28,410 bases of DNA from Pleurostoma richardsiae. Lineage: Eukaryota; Ascomycota; Sordariomycetes; Calosphaeriales; Pleurostomataceae. Shown piece by piece: positions 608 through 28,410 of this stretch; within the stretch, counting starts at the first letter, position 1, and each line of letters starts with the position of its first letter. The notes under the pieces are model-generated. The model worked only from the letters and a program-made list of their open reading frames with translations. It had not been told where the DNA came from and made no database searches. The DNA lies in assembly GCA_030052745.1 (NCBI GenBank), contig JANBVO010000101.1, positions 1 through 28,410 on the forward strand, in the 5' to 3' direction. Made by a program: the position numbers and the translations under genes.

Positions 608-622
608 ATGCAGCATCAGCAT

Positions 623-654
<32 letters not shown>

Positions 655-1012
655 ACAAGAGCCACGAAACGACGGCTATGATAAAATTACTGTGAACACG
701 GCCCCTACAGCTGAAGATCTCAAGAGAAGGATCAGCGAAGCAATGAAAGCAGTGGACAAAGAGCGACGAGAGCTAGGTGATATCTTGGAATTCATCGGCA
801 GGATTGACGATGCCAACCTGGAACAGATGTCAGGGAGTGCCTCAAGCGCAAGGAACAGAAGAAACAAGGAGAAGGTTAGGTCTGCAGCCAAAGTAAAGGA
901 GGAGTATGAACGCAGGCGAGCGGAGAAAGAAGCGAACATTGGGCGTATGTGGCAGAAGATACATGACCTACAGGAGCAGGAGAGGAAGCTTCAAGCCAAC
1001 ACTTCAGTTTGA
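608..1012 (+). CDS. Small poly-Q, coiled-coil hypothetical protein
   Basis: A single-exon ORF of 134 aa with ATG in a reasonable fungal context (AAGAAAATGC). The N-terminus is MQHQH followed by 12 glutamines coded by a CAG/CAA microsatellite. The rest is highly charged and helical (roughly residues 35-130, rich in K, E and R, with heptad-like spacing such as LKRRISEAMKAVDKERREL), suggesting a coiled coil. There is no signal peptide or membrane segment. I do not recognise a family; a nuclear or scaffold role would be a guess. The stop codon lies only 6 nt from the stop codon of the convergent APH-like kinase gene, so the two 3' UTRs must overlap. The Q tract is expected to vary in length between strains. 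Confidence 0.6.
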
Positions 1013-1018
1013 AAGGGA

Positions 1019-2608
1019 CTATTGGCTCGATGTCCAGCCCCATTTTGCCTCCAGCTCTTTCCCCTTGGCAAGCAATTTGTCCAACTCAGTCTCGTACAGC
1101 CCGTTCGTCCTCAAAAACTGAGTGTATCGCTCGCACTGTTCCGCTCGATGTTGCACCTCAGACGCGAGCGATTGATGATTGTGGAAGAAATCAGATACTG
1201 CAGCATCGAGATCCTCGTCAGAAGGCTTGGCGAAAAACTCGTAGAATATGTCTGTGACGTCGGTAGGACGGCGGAGCATATGAGCAACAAAAAACACCAC
1301 ATCCGTTTGGACGATGTCCTCCGACTTGCCGGAATCCAATTGCCCGTACCATTCCTTTCTCAGCAGATCACAGGCACTATTGCTTCTGCTTTTTTCATCC
1401 AGAACGTCGCGAAACTCTGCGTGCAACTGCTTGTTTGTCTTGATTGAGTCATGGCCGGTAATCCATGACGGCGGAGTGAAGACTTGGCGCGGAACAGTAC
1501 TTGTGAACTCCCAGTCGATTATGCCCTGAATCCGCAGGCTTTCATCAACGATGATGTTGGCGCTCCGTAAGTCCGTATGATTCAACACAAAAGGGCCTTT
1601 GTCCAGCTGAGGGTCGATAATCTGGTGAAATATGGGCTCCAAGCCATGTAACGCGAAAACCTCTTGTTTGATGTCGTCGACGGTAAGATCGCAAACTGGC
1701 TGCGAAAAGAAGGCTGATACGAGGTCAAACTGGTGGGCCATATAATCTTTGGCGGAGGCAAAAGTTCGCCGAGGCGACAGATGAAGCGTGGCAGCAGACA
1801 TGGAGATGACGGGGCCTAAAACAGGATCCGGGCTGCCATCGGGATTTGGCATTAAGGAACCTATCAAGGGAAACTCAAGGCTCCTAAGCTCGGCGAGGAC
1901 GTCGATTAGCCCAGAGTAGAAGTTTCTTCTATGTTCCACGCTGGCTTCATTCAAAAGTTTCTTACTCAGTGGTCGGCCTAAAATGAAGTCTATAATAAGG
2001 AACATCTGTGTTCCCGTGCCAGTCTTGGTCAACTCGGCATCGCGCCCATAGGCGTGAACGCGAGGGATTGGGATCATGGTATTGCGCTTGAGATATCTGT
2101 ATTGATATGAGTAGCAGCCCAAAGCGAGAAAATAACTACCGCACGCTCACCGTAAAGTAGACACTTCGCTCAGTAGCTTGTTCCAGGGATCGTCCAGAGC
2201 GGGCTCAACTGGGATTCTCACAACCCACTCAGGCTCATCTTGACTAAACGCAACAAAGAAGCAAACATTGAAGCTGCCGCTCTCCCTGCTCACAACACGA
2301 CACGACCTGCCATTGTGGAACTTTGATGCCAGAGCGCACACCGCATCTGAGTCTATCGATTCGATGAATGCTTTTCTGGCTTGTTTGCGTTGATCTTCCG
2401 TAGCAGAAGGGAATTCCTGAGGACCGGGTTCAAGAGTTCCAGCCGCTGGTTCATTTCCTCCAGAGGCGTTGTTCTCGTCGACACCGGCGTTCCAGGTCTT
2501 GATCGCTGTGACACTAATCAAGTGGAGTAGATGACCCCATAGCCTGGAAAGGTAGAGGACTGCCAACGTCCAGCGCCTTCGTATTAGGCGAATGAGAGCG
2601 GATAGCAT
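1019..2608 (-). CDS. Fungal aminoglycoside phosphotransferase (APH)-family kinase-like protein
   Basis: Two exons, complement(1019..2096, 2151..2608), give 511 aa. The 54-nt intron (donor GTGAGC at 2150, acceptor ACAG ending at 2097) joins SEVSTLR to YLKRNTMIPIPRVHAYG, the usual N-lobe passage of this family. Kinase-fold signatures: WVVRIP (strand with the conserved basic residue), the Glu of SEVSTLR, catalytic loop NHTDLRSANI with His326, Asp328 and Asn333, and metal-binding DWE at 347-349. Family members phosphorylate small hydroxyl substrates, or are uncharacterised in fungi; the substrate here is unknown. An N-terminal hydrophobic/basic stretch (about residues 8-33) could be a membrane anchor or mitochondrial leader. 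The ATG at 2608 is the only good start. The gene is intact and converges tail-to-tail with the poly-Q gene. Confidence 0.85.
2097..2150 (-). other. Intron of APH-like kinase gene
   Basis: 54 nt, GTGAGC...CAG. Splicing restores a continuous kinase N-lobe across two frames. Confidence 0.85.
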
Positions 2609-3151
2609 GGCTGATGCTGCATCGAGGCTCTGCGCTGCTGATTTTGCGGTCGCGCGACTGGACCAAAAGAATGGAGAAATATTTCCGGCTAAACTCTGGA
2701 CTATTGTTGTTGCGTCATCCGATCCTTAGCTTTGAGGTAGTCAGTCAGCACGAGAATGCGGGGCTGGAGGAGTGCTGCAGTGCACCCATCTACCGCCAAT
2801 CTGCGGCCACTGTAAGCATGCATGATTCAGTGGCTATTGGCTGAGAAGCCTCCAAGTTTCCTGAAGGGGAAGACCATCGTAGGCAGCAGATTACCTGGAA
2901 TCTGGGTCCATATGTGGGAAAAATTATTGATGACGGTTTCAGGGCTTCTTTTCTATGTATGCGACCGTCACCAGACGGAGTAGCTGCGGACTGTGAGCAG
3001 ATAAAGAATTGAAAGCAAGAAATGGCTCTGTGATGACACTTATAACATTCGGTAGGGGTACCTGAGGGTACAGTCTGACAGGGGTCAAGCCCCTTATTAA
3101 AATAATTAACTTATAAAATCATCGACATGCTGTATAATTTGCCCACTATCG
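2609..3151. other. Intergenic, no gene recognised
   Basis: Contains the promoter of the APH-like gene at its left edge and no convincing coding sequence. Around 3064-3110 an AT-rich stretch follows TACAGTCTGACAGG and the palindromic GGGGTCAAGCCCC. This could be a decayed transposon end, but I found no second copy. Confidence 0.4.
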
Positions 3152-3472: not shown

Positions 3473-6400
3473 CTATGGTATCCCGTGCCTCGCATGCACC
3501 GCCGCCACACTTTGCTCAAACTCCATTGCCTTCTGTTCCTGCCCGTTAGCCCTATACGCACCGACAAGGTTACGTTGCGCCGTTAGTCGAGATGGGTGGT
3601 CTTCCGCGAGCGTCCTCTTTTGAACTGCCACTACCTGCTCGAGCAGTGCTACCGCTTTCTTGATCTGTCCGTCAGATTGGTATGCGATTGCGAGTTCGTG
3701 CTGCGACGCCAGTCGATCAGGGTGGTCTTCCGCGAGCGTCCCTCCTTTGACTTTGACGACGTGCTCGAGCAGTGCTACCGCTTTCTTGATCTGTCCGTCA
3801 GATCGGTATGCCATTGCGAGGACGTGCTGCGACGCTAGTCGATCAGGATGGTCTTCCGCGAGCGTCCCTCCTTTGACTTTGACGACGTGCTCGAGCAGTG
3901 CTACCGCTTTCTTGATCTGTCCGTCAGATTGGTATGTGATTGCGAGTTCGTGCTGCGACGCTAGTCGATCAGGGTAGTCTTCCGCGAGCGTCCTCTCGCG
4001 AACTGCCATCACCTGCTCGAGCAGTGCTACCGCTTTCTTGATCTGTCCGTTAGATCGGTATGCGATTGCGAGGACGTGCTGCGACGCTAGTCGATCAGGG
4101 TAGTCTTCCGCGAGCGTCCTCTTTTGAACTGCCTCCACCTTCTCGAGCAGTGCTAACGCTTTCTTGATCTGTCCGTCAGATTGGTATGCGATTGCGAGGG
4201 CGTGCTGCGACGCTAGTCGATCAGGGTAGTCTTCCGCGAGCGTCCTCTCGCGAACTGCCATCACCTTCTCGAGCAGTGCTACCGCTTTCTTGATCTGTCC
4301 GTCAGATCGGTATGCCATTGCGAGTTCGTGCTGCGACGCCAGTCGATCAGGGTAGTCTTCCGCGAGCGTCCTCTCGCGAACTGCCACCACCTTCTCGAGC
4401 AGTGCTACCGCTTTCTTGATCTGTCCGTCAGATTGGTATGCGATTGCGAGGGCGTGCTGCGACACTAGTCGATAAGGGTGGTCTTCCGCGAGCGTCCTCT
4501 CGCGAACTGCCATCACCTTCTCGAGCAGTGCTACCGCTTTCTTGATCTGTCCGTCAGATCGGTATGCCATTGCGAGGGCGTGCTGCGACGCTAGTCGATC
4601 AGGGTGGTCTTCCGCGAGCGTCCCCTTTTGAACTGCCACCACCTTCTCGAGCAGTGCTACCGCTTTCTTGATCTGTCCGTCAGATTGGTATGCGATTGCG
4701 AGGGCGTGCTGCGACGCTAGTCGAGACGGGTGGTCTTCCGCGGGCGTCCTCTCGCGAACTGCCACCACCTTCTCGAGCAGTGCTACCGCTTTCTTGATCT
4801 GTCCGTCAGATCGGTATGCGATTGCGAGTTCGTGCTGCGACGCTAGTCGATCAGGGTAGTCTTCCGCGAGCGTCCTCTCGCGAACTGCCACCACCTTCTC
4901 GAGCAGTGCTACCGCTTTCTTGATCTGTCCGTCAGATCGGTATGCCATTGCGAGGACGTGCTGCGACGCTAGTCGATCAGGGTGGTCTTCCGCGAGCGTC
5001 CTCTTTTGAACTGCCACCACCTTCTCGAGCAGTGCTAACGCTTTCTTGATCTGTCCGTTAGATTGGTATGCGATTGCGAGGGCGTGCTGCGACGCTAGTC
5101 GAGATGGGTGGTCTTCCGCGAAACGCTCGCTCCTCCATCGCCAGCATTCTTCGAGACAATGCACGGCCTCCCTTATCCGCCCGTCCACTTGCAAGCACCG
5201 TCCGACCCAAAAGCACAGTTCATATCTCTCCGTATCCTCCGCTCCGGCCCGTTGTAGTATCCGCAAGGCGTGCGGTAGATACTCTCTCCAAAGCCGACGG
5301 TTCTCGTACATATCACTCGGGAACGTCTCCGCTATATGCTGCATCGCCCTCTCCATCGTCTGTGCCGCAATGTCTTCCTTATCCAACCATATCCGCGTCG
5401 CTAAATGTACCAAGCTGTGCATGTCTAGCATATCGGCCCGCTTGGTCACAAACGCATATCCACACAACGTCCCGACCGCGCTTTTCATCTGCACTTCCGA
5501 CTCCAGCCCGGGCAGAATCGATTGCGGGATTGCCTTCGGCTCAATCTGCGACATGAACGACAACAAGTCGGCTGCATTACGATCGATCTCGCGGATTTTC
5601 TTGAAGCTCACCAGCCACGTCGCAGTCACCGCATTCTTCGATTCTCTGTACCGCATTCTGTCCGGGAGTTCCTGGCTGAGCAGTTCCACCATGTCCCTCT
5701 CCGTATTGTGCAACAGTCTCAGGTACTCTGCAGTCGTCACCTCGTTTCTCTCCAGATATGCCGCTGCCTGCGTGATCGCAAGAGGAAGGTACGTCAGCTC
5801 CTGCAGCAACTCGGTCGTCGATGCTACATCGCCGATCAGATCTGTCCGTGCCACCGACTTCTTCAACAGAGTCGTAGCTTCTAACAAACTGAACTCGTCC
5901 AGCTTGACCACCTCCTCAGCGACTCTCATAGCCACGTCTCGCGAGCGCGTCGTGAATAGTATTCTTCCGTTCTCACTTTGCGGAAGATATTTTTCTAAGC
6001 CCCTTGGCACATCAGAATTCCCGCAGATAAGCTCGATGTCGTCCGCATTGTCGACGATCAACAGCCATCGGCCTACCTCTTCCGAGCTCAAATACTGCCG
6101 TACAGACTTTTTAATGTCTTTCTCGTCGCCGTGTTCGATCTTGAGCTTCCTTGCGATGTCTGTGTAGGCCTGCTCAAAGGTGGCTTCGCTGAGAGCCGGC
6201 ACCCAGAAGATGGAGCAATCGGGCCTGTTCGCCTTCGTCCAGTACGTGAGCTCGAGGGCTACCTGCGTCTTGCCCATACCACCCAATCCGACGAGCGCAA
6301 CGCTCGGACAGCCATCCGCGAAAAGTTTCTGCTTCAGTGTGGTCAAAGTCTCGCCACGCCCAACAAAGCGTTTGTTCCTCGAGAATGGAAGGTGGTACCA

Positions 6401-7709
6401 CGGACCGGCGACACTTCCTACTTTCGTGTCAGCTGCTGCTAGGGCGCACATCACGTCTTTCGTACACTAACTGTTCCGCGTGGCGCTAAGCTCAACAGCC
6501 GCAGCCGCCGCCGTCTGCGAATTCTCTCCGTTGTCCCCTCCATAGGCTGCGCTGATGAAGCCATCGACAAACTTCTTGATCGTCCTCTGATTGTCGCTCA
6601 GGTAGTTGCGCGTATGCGCCGAGATCCTACTGGCCTTTTCCCAGTCAGACAAAGTGATATCCTCCAGGCCCTGGTCGACATTGAACCGGTAATACTGGCC
6701 ACTTTCACCATATTGATCATCGAGTCTCGCTGCCACCTTCTTAGAAGATGCGGCCATCCTCTTCAGCGCATTGATGATCGACCGCCGCGTCTTGCCGACC
6801 GCGACGACCTCTCCAAGCCCTGTTCCGACGCTGAGGACCCGCAAGGCCGGACGACCGCGGAACACTCGCTGGGCCTCTTCGATGAGGACCTCGCATGGAT
6901 TGTTGTATCCGAACCCAGCGTCAATGAACTCAATGTCATCTCGACCGACCCGGGTGGGCTTGAAAAAGGTCGTCGCCGCCGATGTCGCCCGTGCCACCTG
7001 CCAGATCGTACAGCCATGCAGAGCGGCAGACGTGTCATACGTCGTGAACAGTATCGGTCGCGCGTCGACGTTATCCTTCGTAATCGCTAGAACAGCACTG
7101 AAGAATGTCAACCATCATCGTCTCCATGTGACTCGTCTCGTTTCGACATACGTCTTGGTGCATGACGTCTCGCGGAATTCCATCTCGCCATGTGGGCATG
7201 TCTCAGCCGTCGAGAAACCTTGTGCGCGTCGAGCGGCGCATGCCGTTTCGACACAGAACTCCCTGACCGTCTGCCTTATGGCGGCCTCGAGAGCTTTAGC
7301 GGAGAATGCTCCAGACGGCGACGCGGGGATGATCTTCGCTTTCTTGGGTGTGAAGGCTTGCTGCGCGACCTTCCTGTATGCTCGTATGCATGCATCGACC
7401 GTCATCCCTAGCCTGCCCAACATGATCGCAATGATCCTCAAGACACGTCAGCAAGCAACCCCGCCGAATAACGAGTAATCTTACCCTCCCGTGCTCGTGC
7501 CGCCGATGAAGTCAAAGTACTCGCAGGGTCGTGGAACATGGTCTAGTCCCTTCGCATCTCGGATCGTCTCCATGATATCTTCCAAGATGAGGAGGCTCGA
7601 TATTCCGCGAATACCACCTCCATCTGCAAGGCGTCAGCGCGACTGATAAGGATAGAGGGGTATACTTACCGAGCGAGAGAATCTTCAGCGGCGTGCTAGA
7701 AGTCGTCAT
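3473..7709 (-). CDS. NLR: patatin-like phospholipase / NB-ARC / TPR allorecognition-type receptor
   Basis: Five exons, complement(3473..6417, 6472..7097, 7152..7436, 7485..7623, 7670..7709), 4,035 nt, 1,344 aa, no internal stop. Patatin domain (residues about 8-330): oxyanion loop DGGGIRG at 14-20, nucleophile elbow GTSTG with Ser57, and catalytic Asp214 in a DAG variant of the DG[AG] motif followed by FGYNNP. NB-ARC domain (about 370-650): VGR entry, Walker A GLGGMGKT at 407-414, Walker B LLIVDNAD at 482-489, GRILFTTRSR at 514-523, and LPLAITQAAAYL. C-terminus: 12 near-identical 42-residue kinesin-light-chain-type TPRs (803-1306) plus a degenerate thirteenth. Known relatives are Neurospora PLP-1 and the het-Z/vic2 type, which trigger cell death after non-self recognition; that function is inferred here. 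ATG at 7709 is the first in frame. The gene is divergent from the gene at 8177. Confidence 0.92.
3590..5101 (-). repeat. Twelve tandem 126-bp coding repeats (TPR block of the NLR)
   Basis: 1,512 bp = 12 x 126 bp exactly, in frame. Units start with RLASQH and end with AEDHP or AEDYP plus D/S/Y. Most positions are invariant across units even at the DNA level. Substitutions cluster at unit positions 7 (A/V/E), 10 (I/M), 13 (Q/R), 27 (K/Q/H), 29 (V/M/E), 30 (A/K) and 32-34 (RER, QKR, QKG, KGG), shuffled between units. This is the pattern of repeats homogenised by unequal crossing-over or conversion while binding-surface positions vary. The block produces long artefactual antisense ORFs on the + strand. 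Confidence 0.95.
6418..6471 (-). other. Intron 4 of the NLR, joining patatin and NB-ARC parts
   Basis: Donor GTTAGT at 6471, branch GCTGAC at 6427-6432, acceptor GTAG ending at 6418; 54 nt, like the other introns. Shorter in-frame acceptors exist (33, 36 or 39 nt introns) but have no branch site and are unusually short. Without splicing, the patatin frame ends at 6467. Confidence 0.75.
7098..7151 (-). other. Intron 3 of the NLR
   Basis: Donor GTATGT, branch TTGAC, acceptor TTCAG; 54 nt. It joins SCTKT to AVLAITKDN within the patatin domain. Confidence 0.85.
7437..7484 (-). other. Intron 2 of the NLR
   Basis: Donor GTAAGA, branch GCTGAC, acceptor TTGAG; 48 nt. It interrupts the codon right after the GTSTG nucleophile elbow. 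Confidence 0.85.
7624..7669 (-). other. Intron 1 of the NLR
   Basis: Donor GTAAGT, branch GCTGAC, acceptor TTGCAG; 46 nt. Splicing completes the Asp codon that opens DGGGIRG. Confidence 0.9.
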
Positions 7710-17624: not shown

Positions 17625-18404
17625 ATGGCCCAAGCTGAGCAGCCTATACGACGTCTACCGACATCAAAGGCTTGACAGCTCTTCCCGTCGAACTCGTGGT
17701 GGAAATCCTTGGGTGGCTTCCGAGCATTACTGCGGTTCACGAAGTTATCCTAGCCCATCGTTACATCGACAATGTGCACCAAGGCTCTGAGAGACAGATA
17801 CTCTCTACGATCTTCCGCAGACAGTATTACAATGCAAGCAAACATGATTCTCGCATGAAAGAGGACCTGCGTTCTGCTATATCCCTCGGTTTTGTGAAGA
17901 CAGAAGTTGTCGAGCACCTCTTTACTCTTGGCTGGGCAGTTTTCCGGAAGGAAGGGAGGGAGGGAGAACTTCTTTGTCTCTCTGCGGATGACTAGCTCGG
18001 ACTACTGTCTAGAACATCGTGAAGACCGGGCTGTTTCACTGCTGCAGAAGCTGGTTCACAGTGTTGAGGCGTCTGCCAGATGCAACTTGCTGAGCCCGGG
18101 ATTGTTACCACTGTTGGAATTGCTGGACAAATTGACCCACTCGACATTCCCGTTCGACGATTTTGAACGGTTCGCCTTGAATATTCTGCTTGGGCATAAA
18201 AGGACGGAGAGAACGACAATGGCCTTAGACGCGGCATCCGAGAATCTCCAGGCGGCGAAGACGCCCACGTCGTTGGAGAATAGAATCCCCGAGTTGAGCG
18301 GCAAGAACAGGCGGTTGAGGCAGCGCATTGCTTCCTACAGAAACCTCATCGACGACCTCATCGACGACCTCACCGACGGGCGTTGGCACCTATCCTCCGT
18401 CTAA
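17625..18404 (+). pseudogene. F-box protein gene with two apparent indels
   Basis: The F-box is clear: LTALPVELVVEILGWLPSI from 17672, the Skp1-binding motif of SCF ubiquitin-ligase substrate adaptors. No ATG exists in this frame after a stop at 17636. The ATG at 17625 starts MAQAEQPIRRLPTSK in another frame and would join perfectly to GLTALPVEL if the AAA at 17666-17668 had one more A. Further on, frame 2 ends at 17995 (GELLCLSADD), while the continuation (SSDYCLEHREDRAVSLLQKL, then LLPLLELLDKL and FDDFERFALNILL) is in frame 3. The switch lies on a GGGA tetranucleotide tract at 17949-17963, and loss of one 4-nt unit would restore the frame. The C-terminus carries a threefold IDDL repeat. Possible pseudogene or homopolymer-type sequencing error. 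Confidence 0.65.
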
Positions 18405-25434: not shown

Positions 25435-26154
25435 CTAGACGTTCTTCCCGGAAGTGCCTGTTCTGCTCGCGTTCATCCTTCTCCGCCACCTCTCAGATAC
25501 CCCAAGTTCTGGATGGTACACTCTGCAATGGCGGGCCAAGGCGTCGGCACGACTGAAGGTCTTCTCCTCTGTACACGCGACGCAGCGGATCTTCCGTTTG
25601 CGTAAGTTGTGAATTGTATCCTCGTGGCGTGTTAGGTCGTAGGGACGCGAGAAGGTCGTGTCGCACGACTTGCCGGTAGCCACGTTGATCCGATCACAAC
25701 GGTGAGGTCCAGCTTGGCCGTTCCCTTTTTTCAAGATGCCAGAAGCAAGCTGTTGGTTCCGATGGCTTCGCTTGTGCTCATTTAGCTTCTTCACTGTCTC
25801 GAATCGCCGTGGACACTGGTAGTAGGTGCAGCTGTACGTCCCATCGTCTGCGGTCGAGATTCGCGGACAGATTGACATGAAGTCTGATGTCTGAAGCCCG
25901 GTCGAAAATCCTTCAGGATGTGCCAAGCTGTTCTGTTCCAACGTGGTGCTGGACCACTGTAATTCTGTGCCATCATGATGGCTGTCATCATGGGCCTCGC
26001 TCTGACGGGGTTTCTGCATTGCCGGATCGGTAGAGAAATAGGGGAGGGCGAGGTGTCCATCTTGATCACTCAAGTCCATGACATTGATCCCAGACCAGAG
26101 AGGGTAGTTAAAGTTCGCAGCAAAACCGGATATCCCGCTCGTGAAGTCACACAT
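25435..26154 (-). CDS. Fungal C2H2 zinc-finger transcription factor-like protein
   Basis: Single exon, 239 aa, ATG at 26154. Three C-terminal fingers: C109-x4-C114-x12-H127-x3-H131 (YSCTYYQCPRRF), C153-x10-C164-x12-H177-x4-H182 (CDRINVATGKSC, FSRPYDLTRHEDTIH) and C191-x2-C194-x14-H209-x4-H214 (RCVACTEEKTFSRADALARH). The long Cys-Cys spacing in finger 2 and the phrase FSRPYDLTRHEDTIHN are hallmarks of a fungal C2H2 subfamily. The N-terminal 100 residues are acidic and Ser/His-rich, possibly an activation region. A basic tail (ERWRRRMNASR) may assist DNA binding or nuclear import. Target genes unknown. Intact. Confidence 0.88.
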   Translation of the reverse strand: MCDFTSGISGFAANFNYPLWSGINVMDLSDQDGHLALPYFSTDPAMQKPRQSEAHDDSHHDGTELQWSSTTLEQNSLAHPEGFSTGLQTSDFMSICPRISTADDGTYSCTYYQCPRRFETVKKLNEHKRSHRNQQLASGILKKGNGQAGPHRCDRINVATGKSCDTTFSRPYDLTRHEDTIHNLRKRKIRCVACTEEKTFSRADALARHCRVYHPELGVSERWRRRMNASRTGTSGKNV

Positions 26155-26926: not shown

Positions 26927-28410
26927 TCACCGCGCGGTAGGGATTTTGGCGTGGGGATCTAGGCTGACAAATGCGCCGTACTCCGCGTCCGTGAGGTCAT
27001 CCTGGCCCGCCTTGTACGGATACAAGTCGATCAGCAAGCGTGTCGGAGGCAGTCTGTTTGACAGCAAAGATTCACAGAGCCCTCTCGCCTGTTCGAGATA
27101 ATAGCTGAGGGGATCGGACGGGTCATCTAGGCGACGTCGTATCCCAGCGAGCATGGCATCTTGCTGCTCCCTGGGCCTGTTTTCTACGGACTCACCCCGA
27201 GGCACGGTACAGAGGAGCGTAAATTTGGAATCCCCCCAGTCCTGTCTCAGTGAGCACAGCTCTTCCCAGAAGCGAAATCGGTACTGTACAGATCGCATCT
27301 CTTTGACGTATGACCGGTCGAGATCGTAGTTCATAGCCTCCGAGATCGCACGGATCCCTTTCAAGCGGCTCATCTTCTGGCGGAATAATACACCGTTGAG
27401 ACGCCTGTGGAACTCGCCCGACATGTTCCCCTTGACGGACGACCAAAGCATCGCCAGGCCGGTTGTTGCAGACGGCTTAGTGGACCGACTGAGCGCGACG
27501 GCATCGCACATGAGCCTGAGGATGATCTTGCGATCGTCCAACGGGGTATCGCGCGCCAGCGGAGGCGACCGCGGAGGTTCAGCTCGCAGTTCTTGGGTCT
27601 CGCCCGTCCCTCCACGCTCGACTGATGACGCGCGCGAGCTCTCGAGGGATGCCCACGGATCAGTTTGAGAGTCCGAGGGTTGATGATCGTATTCTAGAGG
27701 CATCGCAGCGTTGAAGAATGCAGACTGCTCCTCCTCCTCTGAGTCAAGGATTGCCTGGACGGCCCGATCATCTGGGTTCAACTTCTGAGTAAGGAGCTCA
27801 ATCAGGACTCTTGTACGGAAGTCGGTCAGAGTCTTGCCGGCGACGGGCTGGTGAAGGCATCCCCTGCCGTCAGTGATAAGCCGGATTCCTAGGAGCAGAA
27901 ACAGCCCAGACTCTTCCGGGGTAGTCTGCGAGGGGGCGCTCCAGCCGCGTTCCAAGTTGATGTCACCCCGCTGGGATAAGAAGGATGGTACCGGAATGCC
28001 TCCCCTGCTGTCGAACCAGTGAATACAGTCCGGATATATCACGGCATATGCCCAGTTCTCGTCATCTTGAAATGGCACTATTGTCACGGACTTGCCAGTC
28101 GTAGGATCTTGGGGGCGACTAGATCGAGCATTGTGGATGTCCGCTATCCGGACGGATTGGTTGCTCGCTCGGAGAAGACTGAGATAGTCCCCTATGACCG
28201 TCGCGTCCGGCTCTCCTCCCCTGGCCAGACTCCATAATGAGGGGGAGACGGGGTCTCCGCTCCTGGGCAGCATGTGCGACACAGTGTCGGCATATCTGGT
28301 CCACTTCTCGTCTACCGGAGGTAAAGGGTCTTCATGGAAAGCATCTGGTGGAGGGAATGCTCGAACATCTGATCTTGCGTGTGGGATGACCCAGCGCGGA
28401 TAGCGAGCCT
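26927..28410 (-). CDS. Ulp1/C48 peptidase-like protein, apparently lacking catalytic residues (5' partial)
   Basis: The frame is open from the stop at 26927 to the right edge; about 42 further codons upstream of 28282 stay open (RYPRWVIPHARSD, then DEKWTRYADTVSHM), so the start lies outside. The region at about 28075-27860 follows the Ulp1/SENP pattern: TIVPFQDDENWAYAVIYPD, HWFDSRGG and QTTPEESGLFLLLGIRLI. In active enzymes these positions are HW, D and QxxxxCG. Here the His is Asn (28055-28057), the Asp is kept (28010-28012) and the nucleophile Cys is Ser (27908-27910, codon TCT). Hence a non-proteolytic, possibly SUMO/ubiquitin-binding homologue is likely. The C-terminal half (helical, LSRSTKPSATTGLAMLWSSV and beyond) is unrecognised. 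No lesion. Confidence 0.65.
   Translation of the reverse strand, partial: ARYPRWVIPHARSDVRAFPPPDAFHEDPLPPVDEKWTRYADTVSHMLPRSGDPVSPSLWSLARGGEPDATVIGDYLSLLRASNQSVRIADIHNARSSRPQDPTTGKSVTIVPFQDDENWAYAVIYPDCIHWFDSRGGIPVPSFLSQRGDINLERGWSAPSQTTPEESGLFLLLGIRLITDGRGCLHQPVAGKTLTDFRTRVLIELLTQKLNPDDRAVQAILDSEEEEQSAFFNAAMPLEYDHQPSDSQTDPWASLESSRASSVERGGTGETQELRAEPPRSPPLARDTPLDDRKIILRLMCDAVALSRSTKPSATTGLAMLWSSVKGNMSGEFHRRLNGVLFRQKMSRLKGIRAISEAMNYDLDRSYVKEMRSVQYRFRFWEELCSLRQDWGDSKFTLLCTVPRGESVENRPREQQDAMLAGIRRRLDDPSDPLSYYLEQARGLCESLLSNRLPPTRLLIDLYPYKAGQDDLTDAEYGAFVSLDPHAKIPTAR

Follow-up and report, generated by a model that had tools for sequence, protein, structure and literature searches.

Structure and domain content of the locus

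The stretch of DNA analysed here (the window, 28,410 bases) is an entire contig (C4) of the 39.4-Mb, 136-contig genome of the ascomycete Pleurostoma richardsiae. Its minus strand carries, at 7709-3473, a gene for a nucleotide oligomerization domain (NOD)-like receptor (NLR) with an N-terminal patatin effector, or head, an NB-ARC switch and a tetratricopeptide repeat (TPR) sensor. In agreement with a preliminary description of the locus, which had assembled one frame of 1,344 amino acids (aa) from five exons separated by four standard introns, all four predicted introns run from GT to AG and their removal joins the exons into a single frame (Table 1). The product comprises 1,344 aa if intron 4 is 54 nucleotides (nt) long and 1,345 aa if it is 51 nt long, with the 54-nt form being preferred by our simple splice score. 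No continuous reading of the patatin and NB-ARC frames is possible unless the intron between them is removed. Intron 2 was accepted despite its weak acceptor because the joined protein (GGTSTGG followed by IIAIMLGRL) matches the uninterrupted sequences GGTSTGGLIAIMLGRL and GGTSTGGLIAVMLGRL of two relatives. Separate patatin and NB-ARC genes were considered as an alternative and are disfavoured by the splice signals and by the presence of the joint in relatives.

Table 1. Coordinates of the patatin/NB-ARC/TPR gene and its parts in the window (exons and introns as predicted).
Feature	Position	Strand	Description
Coding region	3473..7709	-	full, start to stop codon, five exons
Exon 1	7670..7709	-	translation start; first half of the glycine-rich patatin motif (..ILSL/DGGGIRG)
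Intron 1	7624..7669	-	46 nt, phase 1, GTAAGT..CAG, CTGAC branch-like site
Exon 2	7485..7623	-	DGGGIRG and nucleophile GTSTG (Ser57)
Intron 2	7437..7484	-	48 nt, phase 2, GTAAGA..GAG (acceptor weak, backed by relatives' proteins)
Exon 3	7152..7436	-	middle of the patatin domain
Intron 3	7098..7151	-	54 nt, phase 2, GTATGT..CAG
Exon 4	6472..7097	-	C-terminal patatin part with Asp214 (FIDAG), linker
Intron 4	6418..6471	-	effector/NOD joint; 54 nt, phase 1, GTTAGT..TAG; 51-nt form ends at 6421
Exon 5	3473..6417 (6420-3473 with 51-nt intron 4)	-	NB-ARC-TPR cassette, single open frame
NB-ARC domain	5684..6349	-	P-loop GLGGMGKT and LLIVDNADD
TPR units	3587..5098	-	12 near-identical, all different 42-aa units (126-nt period), diverged cap units on either side

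The spliced front part matched the Pfam Patatin profile over its full length (8.1e-21, profile positions 1-191 of 191), and exon 5 matched NB-ARC (3.9e-13), TPR_10 (2.8e-99) and TPR_12 (8.7e-93), so that all of the profiles proposed in the preliminary description were recovered. Patatin phospholipases are characterised by a GXSXG nucleophile, a glycine-rich oxyanion motif and a catalytic Asp. At the sequence level, this complete set of active-patatin motifs is found in the spliced protein (Ser57 in GTSTG, DGGGIRG and Asp214 in FIDAG), as is an intact P-loop (GLGGMGKT, starting at residue 408 of the 1,345-aa form), which upholds what had been claimed for the nucleophile, the Asp and the P-loop. 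With an effector head of known class, an NB-ARC domain with Walker A motif and an in-frame TPR superstructure, the gene is, as judged from its motifs and profiles, an intact fungal NLR of the established patatin/NB-ARC/TPR type and a new member of it. The receptor itself belongs to a well-described class: in the Sordariales, 146 patatin NLRs (95%) have an NB-ARC domain, with which TPRs are the commonest repeat (PMC12258605), and the same pattern of layouts was described across fungi by Dyrka et al. 2014 (PMC4986451). The genome as a whole contains 14 NB-ARC matches at 13 places, 47 NACHT matches (with two places common to both lists) and 10 patatin matches. The NB-ARC match on contig C13 resembles, in our estimation, a ribosome-biogenesis GTPase and is probably no NLR.

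Among the PADLOC models, the patatin domain best matched an 'Effector' model annotated 'Phospholipase' (4.6e-36, residues 5-320), whereas the match of exon 5 to PDC-S15 (1.3e-06) fell within the TPR part. The phospholipase models matched are presumably CBASS-type; bacterial CapV-type effectors are separate proteins activated by cyclic nucleotides. This match constitutes the likeness of the head to antiphage patatin-like phospholipases (e.g. CapV of CBASS, PMC9095652), the difference being that in the window gene the patatin domain and its receptor form a single protein. A possible prokaryotic origin of the fusion was sought in the best 80 of at least 560 prokaryotic relatives, 79 of which gave a P-loop frame; in this small sample, searched without a positive control, none of the 79 frames carried a patatin, hydrolase, HET or PNP head (phmmer, 1e-3).

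It is improbable that the gene is unexpressed or decaying, or that its repeat array is misassembled. The contig measures only 28 kb, while contigs of the assembly reach at least 2.4 Mb, repeat arrays like this one are difficult to assemble, and a relative on contig C126 is interrupted by an in-frame stop downstream of the patatin part. Against this stand the five exons with their splice signals, which are free of stops over 1,344 codons including the 2.9-kb exon 5, and the 12 repeat units, all of which keep the frame.

Relationships of head and body and the predicted intron at their joint

The head and the NB-ARC-TPR body of the window gene have different nearest relatives within the genome, so that the gene is, by sequence comparison, a mosaic. 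NB-ARC domains were compared in a tree of nine genes, denoted below by their contigs, from which C60b (locus L039) was excluded for a P-loop that deviates from the motif, and patatin domains by pairwise identities; the matches on C48, C45, C1:508853, C1:985069 and C13 lay outside both the tree and the survey of joints. The tree pairs the window gene with C43 (support 96/98), whose NB-ARC domain is also the closest by identity (56%). The head of C43, however, is an alpha/beta-hydrolase (DUF676, 22.3 bits with a cut-off of 20.3) within a single frame of 1,099 aa, and comparison of the two effectors gave no significant similarity (best E 2.7). The window patatin is in turn closest to that of C126 (51% over 59 and 43% over 137 residues), the NB-ARC domain of which is only 27% identical; its identity to the patatin of C1, a gene on a long branch in the tree, is 36% over 333 residues. 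Other relatives carry HET (C88, C60a) or PNP_UDP (C24) heads, C117 has a short head that appears amyloid-like by eye, and C60b has a Ses_B-like motif below the cut-off (0.0017). C88 and C60a share 64% identity in their HET heads but only 36% in their NB-ARC domains, and the NB-ARC domain of C60a is 67% identical to that of C117, though the head of C117 differs. The five head types found on the six genes of the group in the tree require, by our count, at least four replacements.

Two of these relatives show irregularities of their own. The patatin-NB-ARC-TPR gene on C126 (L030, C126:~400,900-403,700) has its in-frame stop right after the patatin part, which may reflect a pseudogene, a sequence error or an unusual intron. 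The NB-ARC-TPR gene C60b (C60:~1,811,300-1,814,100) changes frame in its P-loop region and is possibly broken or equipped with an extra intron.

The joint between effector and NB-ARC domain was surveyed in seven genes (the window gene, C88, C24, C60a, C117, C60b and C43), with C67 (L038) and C126 being omitted from the count because of ambiguous splice sites. Every frame-joining GT..AG intron of 40-130 nt was taken as a candidate and ranked by our signal score, which had been devised after the introns had been picked by eye. Five genes (the window gene, C88, C24, C60a and C117) cannot be read through without a joint intron, and in all five the best-scoring intron was in phase 1 and the NB-ARC-TPR part a single open frame. 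The intron lies 41.7-44.7 codons before the P-loop in the forms chosen by eye and 40.7-44.7 codons in the best-scoring forms. In C60b, the best candidate is also in phase 1, but read-through is possible and the P-loop frame looks broken, whereas C43 has no joint intron; the tally is thus five clear cases, one probable and one without. Outside the count, C1 (L027) likewise has no joint intron, its patatin and P-loop lying in one uninterrupted frame. When the seven genes were compared by BLASTP, leaving out the pair of HET genes, 19 of 20 pairs matched (the exception being C24-C60b), and in 17 of these 19 the main alignment started between -7 and +12 residues from the joint. C117-C60b was counted among the 17 although both heads look amyloid-like. 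The two remaining pairs, window gene-C24 (-5/-11) and window gene-C60a (-29/-27), start further upstream, and the alignment of the two HET genes continues across the joint without a break.

This pattern suggests that heads have been swapped by exon exchange at the phase-1 joint intron. The single NB-ARC-TPR exon of fungal receptors would then constitute a cassette that opens with a phase-1 acceptor, about 41-45 codons ahead of the P-loop, and accepts exchangeable 5' exons encoding a patatin, HET, PNP_UDP or amyloid-motif effector. We put this cassette forward tentatively, as a reading whose chances are slightly below even. If it is, recombination anywhere in the joint intron could create new pairs of effector and sensor without disturbing the frame, the window gene being one product.

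Several observations weigh against such an exchange. All splice sites are predicted, the support of the wider six-gene group (88/94) falls below the tree's own mark, and C43 indicates that a fusion either needed no intron or has lost it. The candidates in the five genes requiring an intron, moreover, were in phase 1 in 14 of 24 cases (with nine in phase 0 and one in phase 2), and all six candidates of C60a were in phase 1, so that the agreement among the five genes is weaker than that of independent draws; the preponderance of phase 1 among the candidates makes the cassette less probable. The joint intron may therefore be no swap point at all, either since independent fusions each gained an intron or since it is an old relic and the breaks lie elsewhere. 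This alternative is a serious though rather doubtful one. It would accommodate the intronless fusion of C43, the bias of the candidates towards phase 1, the reliance on predicted splice sites and the two of 19 pairs that align upstream of the joint, but it leaves aside that the best intron is in phase 1 in all five genes that require one, within a span of ~4 codons relative to the P-loop, and that heads and NB-ARC domains disagree as they do in C88, C60a and C117.

Exchange at the joint intron would bear comparison with two described cases. Dyrka et al. 2014 tabulated effector-swapped pairs, e.g. HET/NB-ARC/TPR and SesB-like/NB-ARC/TPR in B. fuckeliana, which likewise have closely similar bodies and different heads (PMC4986451). 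The word 'intron' occurs nowhere in that paper, nor in PMC10197012 and PMC9815663, and twice, in the methods only, in PMC12258605, whereas here the putative swap point coincides with a phase-1 intron present in several genes. In brown algae, NB-ARC-TPR receptors are similarly diversified by exon exchange (cited in PMC10197012 and PMC12258605). The part exchanged in the case of the window gene would be the N-terminal effector. Brown-algal exon shuffling, by contrast, presumably acts on the repeat sensor. Among the literature matches listed, which covered titles and the beginnings of abstracts outside the subscription literature, no report of a head swap at a joint intron was found. Frequent assortment of domains has been described for the heads of fungal NLRs; a shared phase-1 joint intron would supply a concrete route for it, one that could be examined on the thousands of fungal NLR genes catalogued.

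Sensor array, proposed mechanism and role

The sensor consists of a 126-nt tandem repeat in 12.3 copies. All 12 units at 5098-3587 differ from one another, with mean pairwise identities of 83% (aa) and 91% (nt), 26 of 42 invariant positions and a ratio of nonsynonymous to synonymous differences (pN/pS) of ~1.1; positions 2, 6, 9, 10, 12, 14, 21, 26, 28, 29, 31, 32, 33, 35, 39 and 41 vary. The best 84-aa stretches in the arrays of C24, C117 and C88 reach 89-93%, indicating that homogenised arrays are common in the group of the window gene. By sequence, the array lies closest, among solved structures, to the TPR-like repeats 4y6w (2.1e-68) and 4y6c (2.2e-67), which, going by the molecule name of 4y6c, are from Podospora anserina. 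The array resembles the Podospora TPR NLRs of high internal conservation (HIC), both in these structures and in its kinesin light chain (KLC)-type 42-aa units, which are near-identical within the gene, and is consistent with the concerted evolution and variable surface positions described for them (PMC4986451); the heads differ, being SesB-like there and patatin here.

The array also supplies two points that tell against the proposal as a whole. Dyrka et al. 2014 (PMC4986451) set the HIC mark at an identity among repeats of 85% or more, extending over 100 aa or more; the 504 aa of units are 88.7% identical to their consensus (hand count) and the best adjacent 84-aa window reaches 88%, but the mean pairwise identity lies just below the mark. 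In addition, the variable positions fit the rule of a variable concave face weakly. The positions at which TPR helix A contacts ligands (2, 5, 6, 9, 12 and 13; PMC1261162) showed more variation than most position sets (fraction 0.042 of 3,003), whereas the seven generally most variable TPR positions gave a fraction of 0.30, which is not significant.

The best explanation of the whole, which we consider probable, is that of a patatin/NB-ARC/TPR NLR in which sensing by the TPRs acts through the NB-ARC switch to bring about killing by the patatin, and whose head was exchanged at the joint intron. The open TPR superhelix would bind a self, modified-self or foreign protein, upon which the NB-ARC switch would exchange its nucleotide and oligomerise; the patatin heads clustered in this way would cleave membrane phospholipids, with death of the cell compartment as the outcome. 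The head itself would have been acquired as a block of exons, through exchange at the phase-1 intron of the effector/NOD joint. This chain of events is the reading with the best support: ligand binding and oligomerisation draw on PLP-1 and other NLRs as reviewed, and for the cutting of lipids with ensuing death the intact catalytic motifs and the PADLOC phospholipase models argue; oligomerisation, lipase activity and cell death are inferred from relatives. PLP-1 self-associates, and the death it causes requires both patatin activity and the ATP-binding motif (PMC12881547, PMC10197012). The window gene shares with PLP-1 the patatin head, the NB-ARC switch, the TPR sensor and an intact Ser nucleophile and P-loop (PMC12881547).

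The preliminary description had assigned the gene to the PLP-1/het-Z/vic2 class. The architecture agrees with this assignment, but the linkage to SEC-9 expected from PLP-1 belongs to another gene. PLP-1 kills upon mismatch with the SNARE SEC-9, pairings of an NLR with SEC-9 reportedly originated independently in a number of species (PMC10197012, PMC12881547), and in Neurospora sec-9 was described near plp-1 (PMC11138114). The genome was searched with the PF05739 profile and with a SNARE-motif protein query. At E values up to 10, the motif query found a single place, C1:108297-108434 (E 5.5e-4), which lies in a frame of 474 aa (L041, C1:107076-108497) whose best phmmer match is the yeast-type SEC9 of PDB (2.2e-28). 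Adjoining it is a frame named DEAH-helicase-like from its sequence (L042:1152-3488, i.e. C1:109649-111985), and one helicase gene away from SEC-9 follows the patatin-NB-ARC-TPR gene L027 (~C1:113181-117037). PF05739 found six SNARE places in the genome, with SEC-9 not among them, and is by itself a powerless test; the SNAP-25 Pfam profile matched neither in this nor in the control genomes and is hence uninformative. In the window, neither SNARE query had a match. From the order of these frames, the SEC-9-linked slot is occupied by L027, and the row L041/L042/L027 (C1:107076-117037) is likely the PLP-1/HET-Z counterpart of this genome. L027 shares only 36% (patatin) and 28% (NB-ARC) identity with the window gene and has diverged, unexpanded TPRs (lag-42 identity of 16%, compared to 79% in the window gene). 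That the window gene is itself a SEC-9 guard of the PLP-1/HET-Z/vic2 type is thus very improbable, despite its identical three-domain architecture and intact motifs, and was rejected on linkage. The genome accordingly holds both a SEC-9-linked patatin NLR with diverged, ordinary TPRs and, in the window, an unlinked one with an expanded, homogenised sensor.

With respect to its role, defence or guarding was ranked above incompatibility. It appears rather more probable that the receptor defends the fungus from foreign agents such as bacteria or mycoviruses, or watches over a host protein other than SEC-9, than that it forms an incompatibility locus; such a role refines the explanation given above and does not exclude it. 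The NB-ARC and NACHT matches of the genome outnumber, to our knowledge, the het loci described in any model species, and the array fits the pattern proposed for rapidly changing sensors of non-self. Most fungal NLRs, in addition, are not allorecognition loci (PMC12881547). On the other side, variation among repeats is equally typical of known incompatibility NLRs, HET-D and HET-E among them.

Flanking sequence

Downstream of the NLR gene, two frames are found at 1019-2725 (-), of which 1019-2122 (-) matches the APH phosphotransferase family (Pfam, 4e-15) and 2147-2608 (-) has no Pfam match. A polyglutamine run (CAG/CAA) at 610-662 (+) starts a frame of 134 aa. On the other side of the gene, the frame at 17639-18401 (+) opens with a stretch that is F-box-like by eye; a 12-nt tandem repeat comes after it, at 18343-18378. 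The 493-aa frame at 26930-28408 (-), which reaches the contig end, gave no Pfam match for 26927-28282 and resembles what we take to be the Ulp1-type protease region of a mobile element. A C2H2 zinc-finger protein is encoded at 25435-26154 (-; Pfam, 3.5e-07).

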